From: a virus
Direction: 5' to 3' (one strand)
Length of the DNA stretch: 63,594 nt
IMG/VR virus record: IMGVR_UViG_3300046513_000124
Span: 1 to 63,594 of that record
The notes under the pieces were generated by a model that was not told the origin of the DNA, did not search any database, and saw only the letters and a program-made list of their open reading frames with translations. Both the position numbers and the translations under genes were made by a program. Shown here piece after piece: positions 4,756 through 52,234 of this stretch (its first letter is position 1; each line of letters starts with the position of its first letter).

Positions 4756-5411
4756 TGGGGCCGATCATGGGCGGCGTGGCGCGCTTCAAGTTCGACCCCG
4801 CCACCGTGGCGATCACCTTCGACGGCAATTCGCTGGTCGATCAGAATTACTCGGACCTCGCCGCGCAGCTACAAGCGTTGCCGCCGCTGAACGGCCAGTT
4901 CACGATTGCCAATAAAGGGATCAGCGGCCAGACCATCGCCAACATGGCGGGCAGCGCGGGTGACGTGGACGCAGCGTGGGTTGCAGGGAAAACCAACGTG
5001 CTGCTGCTGTGGGAGATCACCAACAGCATCTTCGTGGAAGGCAAGACCGGGCTGCAGGCATGCGCGGAGCTGTCCTCCTACATCGCTGCGCGCAAAGCCG
5101 TGCATCCGTGGATCGTCGTGCTGATGACCTGCATCCCGCGCGGCGATTTTTTCGGTAGCGGGACTTGGGACGCCACGACCGGTGAAGTGCAGCTGCAGTC
5201 GGCTAATACCTACCTCCGCAACAACTACAAGGCGATGGGCGCACGCGCGCTGGTTGAAATGCGGCAAGGTCCGTTCGCATTCACCGATTCGGCCAATGGC
5301 GCCAACTTTCCGCCATCGCTATGGACCGACCGCACCCACCCGAACAGCGCCGGAAAAGCCTACTGCGCGCAGTACATCGCGGACGTGCTCAAGCGTCTGC
5401 CAGCGAGGTAA
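4755..5411 (+). CDS. SGNH/GDSL-family hydrolase
   Basis: 218 residues. SGNH hydrolases cleave esters, often O-acetyl groups on glycans or lipids. The blocks are present: FDGNS with nucleophile Ser26, a Gly block in NKGISGQ near residue 53, Asn90 in EITN, and the D-x-x-H pair Asp192/His195 in DRTHPN. There is no signal peptide. The start at ATG 4755 overlaps the preceding stop. Coupling to the FN3 protein suggests a virion-borne deacetylase or esterase acting on surface polysaccharide; this substrate is inference. Confidence 0.82.
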   Translation: MGPIMGGVARFKFDPATVAITFDGNSLVDQNYSDLAAQLQALPPLNGQFTIANKGISGQTIANMAGSAGDVDAAWVAGKTNVLLLWEITNSIFVEGKTGLQACAELSSYIAARKAVHPWIVVLMTCIPRGDFFGSGTWDATTGEVQLQSANTYLRNNYKAMGARALVEMRQGPFAFTDSANGANFPPSLWTDRTHPNSAGKAYCAQYIADVLKRLPAR

Positions 5412-5414
5412 GCC

Positions 5415-6062
5415 ATGATCGGCGCATACACGATTGCCAGCGGCCCGATTGCGTCAACGAGCGCGGCGCAGGTAGCCGCCGGCGTTGCTCAAGGCGCGGC
5501 ACTCGTATCAGCATCGACCATCTCGCCGGGTGCAGCTACCGGCAATGCAGCGGCAACAGCACCAGGCGCGAGCCTGACCGCAACGAGCAGCATTGCTCCC
5601 GGCGCGGCAAGCGGCGATACCGGCACGACAACTGGCGGCGGCACCGACCCCGGCGCAATCACCATCCCGGCATCGCGCACAGTCGTATTTGAAGGAGGTT
5701 CACGCGTGGTCAATTTCGGCACTGAAAACATTGATGCCGGCTCCGCAGCGAGCGGCGGTCCCTATTTTGAAAATGGGAAGTGGTGGCTCCCCAAAGACCC
5801 CGACGACAAGCGCTATTACGTCGGCAATGTCGGCAAGGACTTGACCGACAGTGGCACGACCGCCGTTTCGTTTATCCCGGTGGTGGAGGGCGTGACCGTC
5901 ATTGAATCTGGCGCTCCGCAAGGCACCCTTGGTGAGCTGTTGGTCGTGAAGTTGGGCGGCATGGGAGTAGATGGCGAAGAGAGCTTCTGTACCTTCCGCG
6001 TCACCTGTGCCAACACCGAGCAATTCGACCGCACGATCCATTTCAAGAGGGTAGATAACTGA
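5415..6062 (+). CDS. Hypothetical structural protein with low-complexity N-terminus
   Basis: 215 residues in two parts. Residues 1-95 are almost entirely Ala/Ser/Thr/Gly/Pro, with imperfect repeats around SPGAATGNAAA and APGAASGDTGT. Residues 98-215 form a compact domain containing WWLPKDPDDKRYYVGNVGKDL and DSGTTAVSF. A near-perfect internal ribosome site precedes an in-frame GTG exactly at the boundary. The N-terminal half resembles a fibre shaft or linker, the C-terminal half a small beta domain. Function is unknown; a virion role is inferred from neighbours. Confidence 0.7.
   Translation: MIGAYTIASGPIASTSAAQVAAGVAQGAALVSASTISPGAATGNAAATAPGASLTATSSIAPGAASGDTGTTTGGGTDPGAITIPASRTVVFEGGSRVVNFGTENIDAGSAASGGPYFENGKWWLPKDPDDKRYYVGNVGKDLTDSGTTAVSFIPVVEGVTVIESGAPQGTLGELLVVKLGGMGVDGEESFCTFRVTCANTEQFDRTIHFKRVDN
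5692..5708 (+). promoter_or_regulatory. Internal Shine-Dalgarno plus in-frame GTG
   Basis: AAGGAGGT at 5692-5699 lies 6 bases before GTG 5706-5708, which is in frame with 5415-6062 and corresponds to Val98. It could give a separate 118-residue C-terminal product. Confidence 0.5.
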
Positions 6063-45871: not shown

Positions 45872-46392
45872 GCGCCATCACCAGCAAGCAACTCGACCTG
45901 CTGCACCACACGCTTGGGGTCATGCCTGAGCGCCGCGAATCGTACCGCAATCACTTCGTCGCCGGGCGCGGCCACCACGATCAAGCTGACCTTGAGGCGC
46001 CGGAGGCGGCTGGCCTGATGACGAGTGGGAAGGCTCCAGCTTTCTGCGAGCCCGGCGATGTCGTGTTCCGCTGCACGGACGCCGGACGCGCGTACGCAAT
46101 CGAGCGCCTGCCGCAGCCGCCGAAGCGTTCGAAGTGGGACGACTACTACCACAGCGAAAGCTCGCTGACGTTCGCCGAATGGCTGGGCATTGAAGTGCCT
46201 GAGCGGGAATACAACCATTACGCACGCTACGGCGATCCGACGCGCGACTACGTGCGCTTGAAGTCGAGCCGCGCGACGGGCGAATGGAAGCCGACCGTCA
46301 AGGAGGCTAAGGCGAGCTACAAGGCGGCGATGGCTGCGCGGAAGGAACGCGAGCGCGAATGTCTGGCAGCGCAGATCGGCGGTGCCGTATGA
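45868..46392 (+). CDS. Hypothetical early protein
   Basis: 174 residues. Residues 5-75 look like a winged-helix unit (KQLDLLHHTLGVMPERRESY; YRNHFVAGRGHHD). A charged tail contains EWLGIEVPEREYNHYARYGD. Coupled on both sides. It may bind DNA, from fold impression only. Confidence 0.55.
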   Translation: MSAITSKQLDLLHHTLGVMPERRESYRNHFVAGRGHHDQADLEAPEAAGLMTSGKAPAFCEPGDVVFRCTDAGRAYAIERLPQPPKRSKWDDYYHSESSLTFAEWLGIEVPEREYNHYARYGDPTRDYVRLKSSRATGEWKPTVKEAKASYKAAMAARKERERECLAAQIGGAV

Positions 46393-46841
46393 CCATCGCC
46401 ACCCTCAACGACCAACGCTCCGCCGCGCGCATCGCCAGCCTGCACATGCTGATCGCCGAGCTTCGCCAGCGCACCATGACGCGCGGCGATATCCAGGGGC
46501 TCTTAAACATGACGCAATCGGGCGTGCGCGGCTATATCAACGACGTGCTGCCGGTGCTGGAAGTGACCCGCGCAAGGCCAAACGAGCAGTTCACGTACCG
46601 CCTGACCGACGATGCCGAGCAGGTCGCGCGATTCCTCGCAAACCTCGGCGAAGTTACCGAGTACCGCAAGGCGCAGAACGTCACGCGCTCACCCAAGAAG
46701 ATCGCGGAGCGCGACCCGGCGCGGCATGTTCACCTTCTTGCCGACGATGCTCCTTTCAAGGTCCGGCTGCACCGCGGGCCGGTGATGCGCGATCCGATGG
46801 CGCTGCCGGTGGGGTTCTTTCGGAGCGAGGTGCGCGCATGA
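46389..46841 (+). CDS. HTH-containing early protein
   Basis: 150 residues from ATG 46389. Residues 20-55 (ELRQRTMTRGDIQGLLNMTQ, SGVRGYINDVL) form a winged helix-turn-helix. The C-terminal part carries FKVRLHRGPVMRDPMALPVG, a block seen in several small phage early proteins. Probably DNA-binding. Coupled on both sides. Confidence 0.6.
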   Translation: MTIATLNDQRSAARIASLHMLIAELRQRTMTRGDIQGLLNMTQSGVRGYINDVLPVLEVTRARPNEQFTYRLTDDAEQVARFLANLGEVTEYRKAQNVTRSPKKIAERDPARHVHLLADDAPFKVRLHRGPVMRDPMALPVGFFRSEVRA

Positions 46842-47503
46842 GCAAGTCGAGAGGCATCCACAAGCCGCGCGCCATCTGGACCGAGGATCAGGTCGAAACG
46901 CTTCGTCGCCAGTACCCAAACTTCAAGACCGAGAACGTCGCCTTCATGGTCGGCCACTCGCTCGAGCAGACCTATCGCAAGGCGCAAGCGCTCGGCCTCA
47001 AGAAAACGGCCGAGTTCCTTGCTAGCGGAGCGGCTGGGCGCCTTGACGGTATTAAGGGCGGTGCGACGCGTTTTGGCAAAGGCCATGCAACTTGGAATAA
47101 AGGCATGAAGGGGCTGCAAATCGGCGGCGAGAGTACGCAATTCAGGCCCGGCCAACTGCCGCACAACACGCAGCCAATCGGCAGCCTGAAGGTAACGGAT
47201 GACGGCATCTTGCGCCGCAAGGTCAGCGAGGGCAAGGGAAGTAGTAGCAAGCGCTGGCGCGCGGTGCACGAGTTGGTCTGGATCGAGGCGAACGGCCCGG
47301 TGCCGCCAAAACACATCGTCGTGTTCAAGCCAGGCATGAAGACCGCCGCGCTCGATGAGATCACCGTCGACCGGGTCGAGTGCATCACCCTCGCCGAGAA
47401 CATGCGCCGCAACACCGTGCACAACTACCCGAAAGAGATCGCGCAACTGGTAATCCTGCGCGGCGCTCTCAACCGGCAAATCAATAAAAGGACTGGAAAA
47501 TGA
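46838..47503 (+). CDS. HNH homing-type endonuclease
   Basis: 221 residues from ATG 46838. Residues 12-50 form a Myb/SANT-like unit (WTEDQVETLRRQYPNFKTEN). The C-terminal HNH part includes RAVHELVWIEANGPVPPKHI, VFKPGMKTAALDEITVDRVE and CITLAENMRRN. This is the layout of free-standing phage HNH nucleases. It overlaps both neighbours, so it is integrated in the operon. Confidence 0.78.
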   Translation: MSKSRGIHKPRAIWTEDQVETLRRQYPNFKTENVAFMVGHSLEQTYRKAQALGLKKTAEFLASGAAGRLDGIKGGATRFGKGHATWNKGMKGLQIGGESTQFRPGQLPHNTQPIGSLKVTDDGILRRKVSEGKGSSSKRWRAVHELVWIEANGPVPPKHIVVFKPGMKTAALDEITVDRVECITLAENMRRNTVHNYPKEIAQLVILRGALNRQINKRTGK

Positions 47504-47742: not shown

Positions 47743-48125
47743 GTGCAGACATGACCCACCACCCACCCAAATCCAGCGCCGCTTACCAAGCCGCCGAATA
47801 CCTCCACCGCGAAGGCCCGAAGACCGAAGCCGAACTACTCGCCACCGGCATCTTCGGCGCGAAATCCGATTCTGCCGACCGCCTGCAGTGCGCCATCCGT
47901 AGCGGCTGGCTGCGCTTTACGAGCATCGGAACGGTTGCGCGCGGCGTTCCGGCTATCGAGCATTTCGCGAGCAAGGCCAAGTTCGTCGGCAAGGTAGCGG
48001 CGCCGCGCCAGGTCGATCTGATGAGCCGGAAGGCTTACGTGCCGCCCAAGCGCCTGATTCGCGCCGATGCTCCCGACTGCTCGGTGCGGGCGTGGCCGTC
48101 AACGTATGCGAAGGCCGGGGAGTGA
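47739..48125 (+). CDS. Hypothetical winged-helix-like protein
   Basis: 128 residues from GTG 47739 (GTGA overlap) or 124 from ATG 47751. Residues 10-60 (AAYQAAEYLHREGPKTEAEL; SADRLQCAIRSGWLRFTS) look like a winged helix. It couples to the Ref-like gene (GTGA). A role in DNA transactions is inferred from fold and context. Confidence 0.58.
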   Translation: MSADMTHHPPKSSAAYQAAEYLHREGPKTEAELLATGIFGAKSDSADRLQCAIRSGWLRFTSIGTVARGVPAIEHFASKAKFVGKVAAPRQVDLMSRKAYVPPKRLIRADAPDCSVRAWPSTYAKAGE

Positions 48126-48565
48126 AACGCACCGCCCTGACCCGCAAAACCGGCCTCAAAGCCGCTGCCTTCAAGCGATCAGAGCGCAAGGAAGCCGCCA
48201 CCGTGGCAAAGCTGCGCCAGCCAATGAAGTCGCGCTGCATGAAGGGCCGGCCGCCGACCGCCGAGGAACAGCGGTTCATGGATGCCATTGCCTCGCTCGG
48301 GTGTGTGGCTTGCGCAAAGGATGGCTGGGAAAACTCGCTGATCAGCATTCACCACATCGACGGCAGGACGAAGCCGGGCGCGCACATGCTCGTTTTGCCG
48401 CTCTGCGCGCCGCACCATCAACAAGACGACACCGACCCGCTGCGGCGCGTCAGCGTGCACGGGCACAAAGCGCAATTCGTCGCGCGGTACGGCACGGAGT
48501 TGGAGTTGCTGGCCGAGGCGCGCGAGAAGCTTGGAATGCCACAACAACCACAACAGGGAGCCTGA
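48122..48565 (+). CDS. ref: Ref-family RecA-dependent nuclease
   Basis: 147 residues from GTG 48122. The basic N-terminus (TRKTGLKAAAFKRSERKEAA) and HNH-type core (SLGCVACAKDGWENSLISIH, HHIDGRTKPGAHMLVLPLCA, HHQQDD) match P1 Ref, which cuts displaced strands in RecA D-loops. A terminal RYGTELELL is typical. It may promote recombination. Confidence 0.82.
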   Translation: MKRTALTRKTGLKAAAFKRSERKEAATVAKLRQPMKSRCMKGRPPTAEEQRFMDAIASLGCVACAKDGWENSLISIHHIDGRTKPGAHMLVLPLCAPHHQQDDTDPLRRVSVHGHKAQFVARYGTELELLAEAREKLGMPQQPQQGA

Positions 48566-48879: not shown

Positions 48880-49215
48880 GTGACCCTCAACACCCTTGAT
48901 CCCAAGTGGCGCGGCAAAACGGCTGTGCCCATCGACCCGGCGGCGATCGGATTTAAAGCCGCGCCGGCTCCAATCAAAGACCAGTGCGAAGGCTGCATCT
49001 TCATGAGCCAGCGTTCCGCCGTCTGCAGGCAGGCTTCCGCGCTGGCCGTCGAGCATGGGCAGATTGATTGCGACGATCCGTGGCTGGAAGGTGGGAGCGT
49101 GATTTACGTGGCTGCTGATAAGCGCCAACTTGACTTGCTTAGCGAAGCCGTAGCGGGTGCGACCGCGACGGCTTCTGACCATAAACAAAAACACACGAGG
49201 AATGAGAATGGCTGA
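48880..49215 (+). CDS. Small Cys-containing early protein
   Basis: 111 residues from GTG 48880. A CEGCIFMSQRSAVC cluster followed by DCDDPWLEGGSVIYV could bind one metal ion. Its end overlaps the methyltransferase start. Function is unknown. Confidence 0.6.
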   Translation: MTLNTLDPKWRGKTAVPIDPAAIGFKAAPAPIKDQCEGCIFMSQRSAVCRQASALAVEHGQIDCDDPWLEGGSVIYVAADKRQLDLLSEAVAGATATASDHKQKHTRNENG

Positions 49216-50923
49216 TGGAATTGTAAACGATTGGGTCAACGCCATTCACTTCGGCGATTGCCGGGACAGCCTGCGCGCAATGGCTGCTGCTGGCGTCAAG
49301 GTGCAAACCTGCGTCACAAGCCCGCCGTATTTTGGACTGCGTGATTACGGGCACGAAGGCCAGATCGGGCTTGAGGAAACGCCGGAACAGTTCATTGCCG
49401 AACTGGTCGACGTTTTCCGCTGCGTGCGCGAGGTGCTGGCTGACGATGGCACGCTTTGGGTGAATATCGGGGACAGCTACGCAACCGGCACGAAAGCCGA
49501 CAGGCAGCAGTCCACCAATCCGGGGGTAGGTGCAAATCGCCCCGAGGCGCAAAACAGCGTGGCGCGAATCGGCACGCCGGCAGGTTGCAAAACGAAAGAC
49601 CTGATCGGAATTCCTTGGATGCTGGCATTCGCCCTGCGCGCCGATGGCTGGTATCTGCGCCAGGACATCATTTGGCACAAGCCGAACCCGATGCCGGAAA
49701 GCGTGACCGATCGCTGCACCAAGGCGCACGAATACCTGTTCCTGCTGTCGAAGTCGCCGCGCTACTTTTACGATGCCGAGGCGGTAAAGGAGCCAGCCGT
49801 TGGCGAGCCGCCTATGCCGCGCATGACCATGCACGGCGGTATCAAGGCGGCTATAACGCAAGGTGGCGGTCGTGAAAGTAGCATGCTTGGCACGCCTGCT
49901 GATGGCAAGCGCAACCGCCGCAGCGTGTGGAGCGTCGCTACCAAGCCTTACAACGGCAAAAAAGCGCTTACGGATTATGTCGGCGACGATGGCAAGCCCT
50001 ACACAGCGTCACCAGATTGCCCAATTCATGCGCATCTGTCGCGAGTGAAAAAGTCCGGTACTCGCGGATATGATGCACAACCAAGCTCGACTTTGACGAG
50101 CAATCCTGACACTGGTGAGAATCGCGCGCCATCGCCTGCTTGCGACGAGACAGCCACGACTTTCCATAAGTCGGCGGGTGTGCATGTGTGTAATGCGCCG
50201 ACGAATAAAGTTGAAAACACGCACGCGAGCAAAACTGCTTTGCTCCAGACCGAACATATTTCGGGCGCGGGAACTCAGATTGGCATTGCGTGCAAGTCAG
50301 AACATGGTGAGCATCAGGGTTGTGAAGTGGATTCATCGCCCCTGTGCAATGCTTCGACTGCCACGACCCATAGCACGCAAACGAGCAAAACGGGCCTCGC
50401 TCCTGCGACCACGCTGCCATGTACGCCTTGCGCCGGAACTGCGCCTGACACTCAACACACTGAAGCTCAACGCGGGTCGTTCGTGCCGCATCACGGCAAG
50501 GACGAGAGCAATACTTCGATGGCCGATTTTTTCGGTCATCCTTCGCAAGATACTGCTGGCGGCATTGCTGGCATTCCTTCTCGACAGGCTTCATCTGCGC
50601 ATCCTCAGTGTTTGTGCAATGAGGTCATTATAGACCACTTCGCCGTTTTCCCGCCAGACCTGATTGTGCCGTGCATCCTTGCCGGATCGCGTCCAGATGA
50701 CGTTGTGCTCGATCCGTTCATGGGATCCGGCACCACAGCAGAGGTATCAATTCTGCACGGCAGGGAGTTCGTGGGCTGCGAACTAAATCCCGATTACAAG
50801 CCGCTGCAGGACGAGCGAATCGCGGAAGCCCGCGCCACCTTGGCCGAAGCACAAGCCGCCGCCGATCTCGCCTCACGCCAAGCCGACCTCTTCACCACCC
50901 AAGCCAACACGGAGCCCGCATGA
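49208..50923 (+). CDS. DNA methyltransferase carrying a large in-frame insertion
   Basis: 571 residues from ATG 49208 (GAGG site; ATG 49202 is possible). The TSPPY catalytic motif is at residues 37-41 and the AdoMet motif FMGSGTT starts at Phe504, the beta-class order. Residues about 251-476 form an insertion rich in Thr, Ser, His and Cys between VWSVATKPYNG and DHFAVFPPDL, segments usually adjacent. That insertion is antisense to an HNH gene. The enzyme could protect phage DNA from restriction; whether it folds with the insert is unknown. Confidence 0.85.
   Translation: MADGIVNDWVNAIHFGDCRDSLRAMAAAGVKVQTCVTSPPYFGLRDYGHEGQIGLEETPEQFIAELVDVFRCVREVLADDGTLWVNIGDSYATGTKADRQQSTNPGVGANRPEAQNSVARIGTPAGCKTKDLIGIPWMLAFALRADGWYLRQDIIWHKPNPMPESVTDRCTKAHEYLFLLSKSPRYFYDAEAVKEPAVGEPPMPRMTMHGGIKAAITQGGGRESSMLGTPADGKRNRRSVWSVATKPYNGKKALTDYVGDDGKPYTASPDCPIHAHLSRVKKSGTRGYDAQPSSTLTSNPDTGENRAPSPACDETATTFHKSAGVHVCNAPTNKVENTHASKTALLQTEHISGAGTQIGIACKSEHGEHQGCEVDSSPLCNASTATTHSTQTSKTGLAPATTLPCTPCAGTAPDTQHTEAQRGSFVPHHGKDESNTSMADFFGHPSQDTAGGIAGIPSRQASSAHPQCLCNEVIIDHFAVFPPDLIVPCILAGSRPDDVVLDPFMGSGTTAEVSILHGREFVGCELNPDYKPLQDERIAEARATLAEAQAAADLASRQADLFTTQANTEPA
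49968..50594 (-). CDS. HNH endonuclease with zinc fingers, nested antisense in the methyltransferase gene
   Basis: 208 residues from ATG 50594 (GAGGATG upstream). Three zinc-type units occur in order: CQQC...YCSRPC, CVEC...FCSFAC and CTQC...FCSRAC. A full HNH domain follows: CQDCSSKSSLVVHHIREYRT and NLVTLCRACHRRRHNP. These motifs match real homing-type HNH proteins and cannot be chance shadow coding. The GC content here is lower than in the flanks (47-55% in three sampled lines). It fills nearly the whole insertion in the methyltransferase. Confidence 0.88.
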   Translation of the reverse strand: MKPVEKECQQCRQQYLAKDDRKNRPSKYCSRPCRDAARTTRVELQCVECQAQFRRKAYMAAWSQERGPFCSFACYGSWQSKHCTGAMNPLHNPDAHHVLTCTQCQSEFPRPKYVRSGAKQFCSRACFQLYSSAHYTHAHPPTYGKSWLSRRKQAMARDSHQCQDCSSKSSLVVHHIREYRTFSLATDAHELGNLVTLCRACHRRRHNP

Positions 50924-51366
50924 AGCCCCGCTCACCCGACTACCAGAAAGAACGCCGCGAGCGCCAGGAGCGGCGAATCATCGAAGCACTATCGGAGCCG
51001 ATGGATATCCTCGAACTTGCCGCCGCGCTATGCATGGCCAGATCTACGGCGCAACGGCACTTGACACGGATGGTCAACGCCAAGCGCCGGAAGGTTCGCA
51101 TCGCGGGGTGGCGACCAACCGACGGGCGCCCGCTCGCGCTCTACAAGCGGGGCAGCGCGCCCAACGCTCCGAGCCTTGCTAAAACAACGGCGGAAATTTG
51201 GGAGCAGATCAAGGCCGACCCGGTTCGGCATGAGGCAGTCAAGGCCAGCAACCGCCGGACCAACCGGCGACGCAAAGGGCTACCGCCGATTCCCGTGACG
51301 CCTGCGAGCGCGTTTGCGGCGCTGTTTGCGATTGCGGGGAAGGGGCAAGGGGCGGCGCATGGCTAG
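50920..51366 (+). CDS. Winged-helix early protein
   Basis: 148 residues. Residues 20-70 are a winged helix-turn-helix (RRIIEALSEPMDILELAAAL; MARSTAQRHLTRMVNAKRRK). The C-terminus is basic. Directly before the O-like gene, it may assist replication or regulate. It overlaps both neighbours. Confidence 0.65.
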   Translation: MKPRSPDYQKERRERQERRIIEALSEPMDILELAAALCMARSTAQRHLTRMVNAKRRKVRIAGWRPTDGRPLALYKRGSAPNAPSLAKTTAEIWEQIKADPVRHEAVKASNRRTNRRRKGLPPIPVTPASAFAALFAIAGKGQGAAHG

Positions 51367-52234
51367 GATTCGCAGCATCAAGCCGGAGTTCTTCACGAGC
51401 GCCGACATCGTCAAACTGACGCCGCTTGCACGCCTCTTTTACGTGTCACTGTGGTGCGAAGCCGACCGCGAAGGCTACCTGAAATGGGATACCGACACGC
51501 TCAAGATGCGCTACCTCGGCGGGGACAATGTTGACATCGAAACACTGGCCGACGAACTGCTGGCGCGCGGTCTGATCGTGCTTTACGTGGACGACGAGGG
51601 CACCGAATACGCGGAAATCCCGAGCTTTAAGTTGCACCAAGTCATCAACAACCGGGAGGCGCCGAGCATTTTGTGTTCACGCGTGAAAGAGGCGTGTACA
51701 CGCGTGCTAGGGGAAGGGAAGGAAGGAAGGAAGGGAAGGGAAGGGAAGGAAGGGAAGGGAACTAGTCCGGCACAAGCGCCGGACGCGCCGCCGACCGGAT
51801 CGGGATCGACCGACGAAACCGCCGAGAAGCGCACGCGCCGGCGTGGCAGCGAAGAGGACTTCAAGGCTGCGCGCTGGATGTACGGGCTGGTCCTGGCCGT
51901 CAACGCGACCGCCAAGCAGCCGAACTTCGATGTCTGGGCCGACGAGGTGCGGCTGATGCGTGAGATCGACAAGCGCACGCACCACGACATCTGCGAGCTG
52001 TTCCAGTGGGCCAAGAAGGATTCGTTCTGGTGCGCCAACATCCAGTCGCCCGGCAAGCTGCGCGAGAAGTGGGACACGCTGACCGAGCAGAAGGCGCGCG
52101 GCGGGCATCGGGGCCTGGCATCGGAGGGCAAGTTCAGCTTTGCCAACGCCGACCGATCCGGCGACAAACTCGCGCAGCAGCAGACGCTTGAGCGGCACGG
52201 CATCGTCATCCCTGACGGCGAGGTCGAGCTATGA
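51359..52234 (+). CDS. O-like replication initiation protein
   Basis: 291 residues from ATG 51359. The N-terminal domain (ARIRSIKPEFFTSADIVKLT; ARLFYVSLWCEADREGYLKW) is the phage replisome-organiser winged helix. A Gly/Lys/Glu repeat (residues about 117-135) is encoded by a polypurine run, and the C-terminal domain (RWMYGLVLAVNATAKQPNFD, WAKKDSFWCANIQSP) is helicase-loader-interacting-like. It precedes a DnaC-like ATPase, the lambda O-P arrangement. The putative origin lies inside the gene. Confidence 0.82.
   Translation: MARIRSIKPEFFTSADIVKLTPLARLFYVSLWCEADREGYLKWDTDTLKMRYLGGDNVDIETLADELLARGLIVLYVDDEGTEYAEIPSFKLHQVINNREAPSILCSRVKEACTRVLGEGKEGRKGREGKEGKGTSPAQAPDAPPTGSGSTDETAEKRTRRRGSEEDFKAARWMYGLVLAVNATAKQPNFDVWADEVRLMREIDKRTHHDICELFQWAKKDSFWCANIQSPGKLREKWDTLTEQKARGGHRGLASEGKFSFANADRSGDKLAQQQTLERHGIVIPDGEVEL
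51676..51761. other. Candidate replication origin: palindromes plus polypurine tract
   Basis: TTCACGCGTGAA (51676-51687), GCGTGTACACGC (51692-51703) and CACGCGTG (51699-51706) are perfect palindromes; the two CACGCGTG cores are 21 bp apart. They are followed by 53 uninterrupted purines (51709-51761). Lambda's origin also lies inside O, as inverted-repeat iterons followed by a strand-asymmetric melting region. Confidence 0.6.

Follow-up and report, generated by a model that had tools for sequence, protein, structure and literature searches.

An antisense HNH endonuclease gene nested in phage DNA methyltransferase genes whose reading frame stays open

At least twelve viral genomes carry a gene for a zinc-finger HNH endonuclease nested antisense within a DNA methyltransferase gene, and the frame of the host gene is kept free of stop codons beyond chance. 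The case that led to the others lies in a stretch of 63,594 nucleotides (the IMG/VR viral contig IMGVR_UViG_3300046513_000124, positions 1 to 63,594; hereafter, the window), and all of the nested loci known come from metagenomic contigs. The nesting, the edges of the insertion, the avoidance of stops, the constraint on the plus strand, the promoter-like sites and horizontal movement into the lineage of the window are shown by computation. The arrangement is likely to represent a homing endonuclease gene that persists without an intron or intein by having its antisense strand code for a loop which the host protein tolerates, although DNA cutting, homing, zinc binding and methylase activity are inferred. 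No expression, cutting or methylation data stand behind the homing and dual-coding reading, in which function is an inference.

The nested gene occupies positions 49968-50594 on the minus strand, running from ATG to TAA, and encodes a protein of 208 residues that bears zinc motifs made of Cys pairs and has its HNH domain at the C terminus. This protein matches Pfam HNH (3.2e-9) and phrog_1271 (6e-23), together with zf-FCS at 0.0012, a match under the cut-off of that family, and the residues H174, H175, N193 and H202, as well as the Cys pairs, are invariant in 12 nested relatives. Its structure model is fairly confident (mean pLDDT 83.6) and found no match in the PDB at E below 0.001, the nearest HNH structure being that of GVE2 HNH (5h0m).

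The host gene, on the plus strand, extends over 49208..50923 within a frame that is open from 49157 (588 residues; N6_N4_Mtase, 7.9e-44), and its probable start is the ATG at 49208, with a GAGG Shine-Dalgarno-like site immediately 5' of it. Both motif IV (TSPPY) and motif I (DPFMGSGT) are intact, motif I and the C-terminal half of the protein being conserved downstream of the insert, and the best structural matches of the model are MboIIA and CcrM. By motifs IV (SPPY) and I (DPFxGSGT) and by its fold, this is a beta-class N6/N4 DNA methyltransferase, whose methylase activity is inferred. Two further nuclease-like genes are found shortly upstream on the plus strand, at 46382-47503 (a weak HNH_3 match) and 48092-48565 (a RecA-dependent nuclease of the Ref family, 6e-25), while a purine-rich run of GGAAG/GGGAA repeats occupies about 51713-51760, within the open reading frame at 51314-52234.

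The edges of the insert were set by aligning the methyltransferase of the window to a first-round set of 80 viral relatives. Similarity stops at residue 267, whose codon ends at 49957, and resumes at residue 494 (50636), which leaves an inserted segment of 226 codons in the methyltransferase frame (49958..50635, plus strand) between PYNG and HFAVFPP. PYKG and AHFATFPP are contiguous in nearly all of these relatives. The usual empty site, KPYKG-A-HFATFPP, has one residue between the aligned flanks, an Ala, in place of which the window has the 226 amino acids; among the 80, L005 itself carried a second nested pair. The position of the HNH gene is thus fixed and conserved, and in close relatives it is unoccupied. 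AlphaFold models the core of the inserted methyltransferase with confidence and residues 281-463 as disordered, with intermediate confidence at the two bases of the loop. The initial annotation had described a full-length minus-strand zinc-finger HNH protein with the expected motifs, opposite an uninterrupted plus-strand insertion of 226 residues between flanks that are normally contiguous, and both claims held; its claim of lower GC in the insert held as well, but the difference is small (53-60% against about 60-64% across most of the flanks).

Searches of IMG/VR recovered 11 more distinct nested pairs, making 12 with the window, and neither the insertion site nor the antisense phase differs among them. 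A scan of viral contigs with the single HNH protein found nothing and alignment queries were needed; searches with the HNH alignment gave L082, L083, L085, L086, L121, L123, L124 and L125, where L083 is the same locus as L005 and has an identical second copy (L084), as does L121 (L122). Searches with the plus-strand insert and downstream flank, a query that does not select for the presence of the HNH gene, added L129, L130 and L135, and the antisense HNH is intact in all three; as a query, an alignment of nine plus-strand rows proved too diverse, and three rows worked. No insert recovered from IMG/VR lacked an intact antisense HNH. A query with the plus strand of L124 gave phage matches only near the HFA end of the host gene and none in the insert, a later HNH search brought back only contigs already known, none of them with a free-standing member, and no relative was found in 84,980 bacterial and archaeal species genomes (GTDB), an absence that is bounded by the need of such scans for exact short peptides.

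Among the 12 distinct pairs, the HNH proteins are 38-60% identical and the plus-strand inserts 21-42%. The insert consists of the HNH gene plus 26-59 nt, and the end of the HNH stop codon lies no more than about 11 nt from the edge of the insert. Each host codon pairs with positions 2 and 3 of one HNH codon and position 1 of the next, so that in all the nested pairs the second codon position of either gene faces the third position of the other, and both proteins can therefore be tuned.

Whether the open frame exceeds chance was assessed by shuffling synonymous codons within each HNH gene and then scoring the methyltransferase frame, a procedure used in place of dN/dS because the nested loci offer only identical copies or pairs too diverged for it (no more than 60% HNH identity). 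The methyltransferase frame has no stop in any of the 12 loci, against 1.5-7 expected in each (Fisher 2e-14; 3e-13 with phage codon usage as the null), and the window alone has none against 3.7 expected (P about 0.007). Individually, nine of the 12 loci fall below P 0.02, and it should be borne in mind that the combined values assume independent loci, which related sequences are not fully. By comparison, the non-nested HNH relatives of HFTV1, HRTV-28 and Lactococcus phage AM9 have 10, 7 and 16 antisense stops, matching their nulls.

The constraint on the plus strand goes beyond the lack of stops. Phage codon usage would predict an insert less hydrophilic than the one observed (mean z -2.55, with z of -3 or lower in seven of the 12), and identity in the plus frame exceeds that of shuffles in which the HNH residues were held fixed (z = 10), showing by computation that this frame is under a constraint of its own beyond HNH coding. 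The signal is strongest in S, C, P, H and G columns around S-x-D-C-P-x-H near the start of the loop, where the C, H, S and G are conserved in all 12. In the window, the CxxH of this stretch is CPIH (50018..50029, methyltransferase frame, plus strand), with its C and H present in 12/12 and a conservation that exceeds what the overlapping HNH codons require. A CxC (CLC in the window, 50609..50617, same strand and frame) is likewise present in every locus, 9-16 residues before the HFA motif, in the stretch that precedes the HNH start codon and thus outside the HNH coding sequence. These two halves of a putative zinc clamp may form a site that closes the base of the loop, which remains only a possibility, with zinc binding inferred and no atomic distances checked.

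Sites resembling sigma70 promoters precede the HNH start in most loci when promoter scores are compared with those of control positions in the same genes (Fisher 1.6e-12). TTGACA-17-TATAAT is found ahead of the HNH gene in L135, TTGACA-16-TATAAT in L129 and TTGACT-17-TATAAT in L123, and the distance from the end of a -10-like hexamer to the HNH ATG is 6-7 nt in seven loci, a spacing that suggests a leaderless mRNA, for which there are no expression data. The window has a perfect TATAAT inside the insert (50627..50632, minus strand, 32 nt before the ATG; P=0.002 against control positions of that gene), the -10 of a putative HNH promoter, and a Shine-Dalgarno-like GAGGA upstream of the same ATG (50602..50606, minus strand), read from the sequence. 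Its best -35 has only two of six matching bases, and because of this poor hexamer a simple promoter scan of the window reported no minus-strand match. Scored against control positions, a significant two-hexamer promoter is absent in L083, L124 and L125.

The distribution of the nested insert is patchy, and the relationships of the host genes bear on how it arose. The methyltransferase core of the window is 72% identical to that of an uninserted relative (L002) and at most 52% to those of the nested ones, and in the tree it falls inside an uninserted clade. A single clade for the nine nested rows tested was rejected by the AU test (P 0.00055), while without the window a clade of the other eight was not rejected (P 0.66). 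In addition, the core of L125 is about 30% identical to all the others, yet its HNH reaches 56% identity with theirs. Given these core identities and AU tests, horizontal acquisition of the insert by the lineage of the window is well supported, with homing activity inferred, whereas for the other nested loci horizontal movement is possible and no more than suggested; the tree is weakened by long branches and by sampling centred on the window.

Some of these genes depart from the common pattern. The host genes of L124 and L123, two of the 12, look broken. The former has an in-frame TGA after the SPPYY of motif IV, and directly after SPPYY, near 5507, it shows an apparent extra stretch of 9 nt (TGAAGGAAC), which may reflect a broken methyltransferase or a sequence error. 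In L123, a second HNH of the NUMOD3 type (5287-5835, plus strand) interrupts the gene in its N-terminal portion, on the opposite strand; at neither edge does it join the flank in frame, yet it has no antisense stop against 6.4 expected, which is unexplained, and it follows that an open antisense frame is not always read through.

Other inserts have also been found in these methyltransferases. That of L085 contains a second, different HNH (HNH_3 with a zinc ribbon; 4880-5455, plus strand), again antisense inside the same gene and again with the host frame, of 780 codons, open (no stop against 3.8 expected). The methyltransferase of L135 (1009-3879, plus strand) also has, upstream of its antisense HNH, an intein (C...HN|C before KPNPMPE), and those of L121 and L125 have sense-strand, in-frame LAGLIDADG-like stretches without visible intein motifs (the Pfam matches of L121 being weak), which resemble the lone LAGLIDADG of actinophage methylases.

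A same-strand version of this arrangement is already known, and what is new here is the antisense one. In the ShiLan domain, an HNH is encoded in another frame of a mycobacteriophage methylase, the host frame of which is open (Arsenault, Gosselin and Gogarten 2025, PMC11855218; also PMC9957025). ShiLan gp65 and the antisense family have in common a zinc-finger HNH gene carried by a phage DNA methylase gene that stays open, an insert that is disordered in the host frame, no intron or intein found, and a patchy, horizontally moving distribution. On the other hand, the ShiLan HNH is on the same strand, in the third frame (JN020143), whereas that of the window is antisense; BLASTP of the ShiLan methylase against that of the window gave no match, and the two HNH proteins share only short zinc-finger matches. 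The antisense family has, in addition, promoter-like sites and the conserved CxxH...CxC host-frame motif, the presence of which in ShiLan was not compared. Mantra gp63 was considered as a ShiLan-type example and rejected for having no insert, and ShiLan JN020143 was used.

More distant parallels are also available. A lone LAGLIDADG endonuclease and an intein have been described in actinophage methylases by the group of the ShiLan authors (PMC9957025), with which the present family shares the repeated targeting of phage methylases by in-frame homing elements, but those are sense-strand domains in the same frame, with no second gene on the other strand. The HNH proteins of the haloviruses HFTV1 and HRTV-28 and of Lactococcus phage AM9 have the same architecture of zinc fingers plus HNH (25-29% identity) but are free-standing or intron-type, not nested opposite a gene, and their antisense frames are full of stops; HNH relatives elsewhere are free-standing or lie between the pieces of a split ribonucleotide reductase gene. 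Homing endonuclease genes antisense to their host are known from nuclear group I introns (PMC9548176), although these sit in a spliced rDNA intron and, unlike the window, involve no dual protein coding. The text of PMC11855218 mentions no antisense case, and a search of the open-access literature, subscription papers excluded, turned up no earlier description of homing genes nested antisense in a host frame that stays open.

Given the uninserted homologues, the 11 further pairs, the stop-avoidance statistics and the phylogenetic incongruence, the proposal of the initial annotation that a homing-type gene invaded antisense and left its target in frame is supported, with cleavage and homing inferred, and its suggestion that the nuclease loses its own target site through the insertion is plausible, although without cleavage data behind it. 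It had called for a search for the same nested pair in other phages, which yielded the pairs described above, and had named as refuting evidence either the same insert without an antisense ORF or stops in the antisense frame of close relatives, neither of which was found among the nested loci recovered from IMG/VR. It had missed the conserved CxxH...CxC motif, the built-in promoter-like sites and the published same-strand hidden HNH genes (PMC11855218).

In the mechanism proposed here, the cassette would comprise a promoter of its own and the zinc-finger HNH gene, antisense at a fixed site of phage beta-class methyltransferase genes. The HNH protein is inferred to cut uninserted alleles at the PYKG|AHFATFPP codons, after which repair would copy the cassette in. 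Synonymous codon choice would keep the antisense strand of the cassette stop-free and mostly hydrophilic, so that no intron or intein would be needed, and the ribosome would read the host gene through the cassette, producing a disordered loop of 170-230 residues between the target-recognition region and motif X, the base of which may be held by the CxxH...CxC zinc site. A bolder reading, towards which the evidence leans by a narrow margin, is that a homing gene lineage has evolved an antisense strand that codes for a stop-free, hydrophilic and zinc-pinned host loop.

Four alternatives can be raised, all of them very unlikely. The first is a compact nested restriction-modification pair, in which the HNH would act as the restriction enzyme and the methyltransferase would give the matching protection. 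An HNH nuclease with a DNA methyltransferase is a common restriction-modification pairing, and both frames are conserved here. Against this, the HNH proteins share 38-60% identity while identity among the methyltransferase cores that hold them falls to 30%, which gives no sign of matched specificity; uninserted methyltransferases 72% identical to that of the window manage without the HNH, and insertion occurs at one fixed place, as it does for homing elements.

A second is that the insert is removed from the RNA or the protein as an unrecognised intron or intein, the open plus frame being incidental. HNH relatives between split gene pieces in a Lactococcus phage, and the intein elsewhere in the L135 methyltransferase, speak for it. 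However, the Rfam group I and II intron models have no match in the window, Pfam finds no intein domain in its methyltransferase, and a spliced element needs neither the avoidance of stops in 12/12 loci nor conserved residues in the host frame.

Third, the methyltransferase may be dead or dispensable and the open frame mere luck in GC-rich antisense DNA, for which the two broken-looking host genes and the argument that the ShiLan methylase is not essential for the phage (PMC11855218) could be cited; against it stand the stop avoidance (Fisher 2e-14), the host-frame constraint (z = 10) and the conservation of motif I and the C-terminal half downstream of the insert. Finally, the HNH could be an ordinary phage nuclease of packaging or recombination, fixed by descent and not a homing element, as some phage HNH proteins aid packaging (PMC11855218) and a single clade of the eight nested methyltransferases tested without the window was not rejected, but the placement of the window's insertion inside an uninserted clade, the patchy distribution and the insertion at one conserved codon site speak against it.

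The preferred reading remains that of a homing gene whose antisense strand is tolerated as host coding sequence. Homing genes usually survive in essential-looking genes by being spliced out, and here the element appears to persist because both strands carry meaning, the host gene being read through it and gaining a loop. Phage methyltransferases emerge as a hot spot for such elements, with an intein, a LAGLIDADG insert, the antisense HNH and, in one L085 gene, two antisense HNHs. Long antisense dual coding also gains a natural example in this family, one in which 12 diverged loci can be set against matched uninserted controls and against non-nested relatives. If the bolder reading is true, there would be a route besides the intron and the intein by which such a gene may live in a coding gene without killing it, with its own promoter squeezed into the codons of the host.
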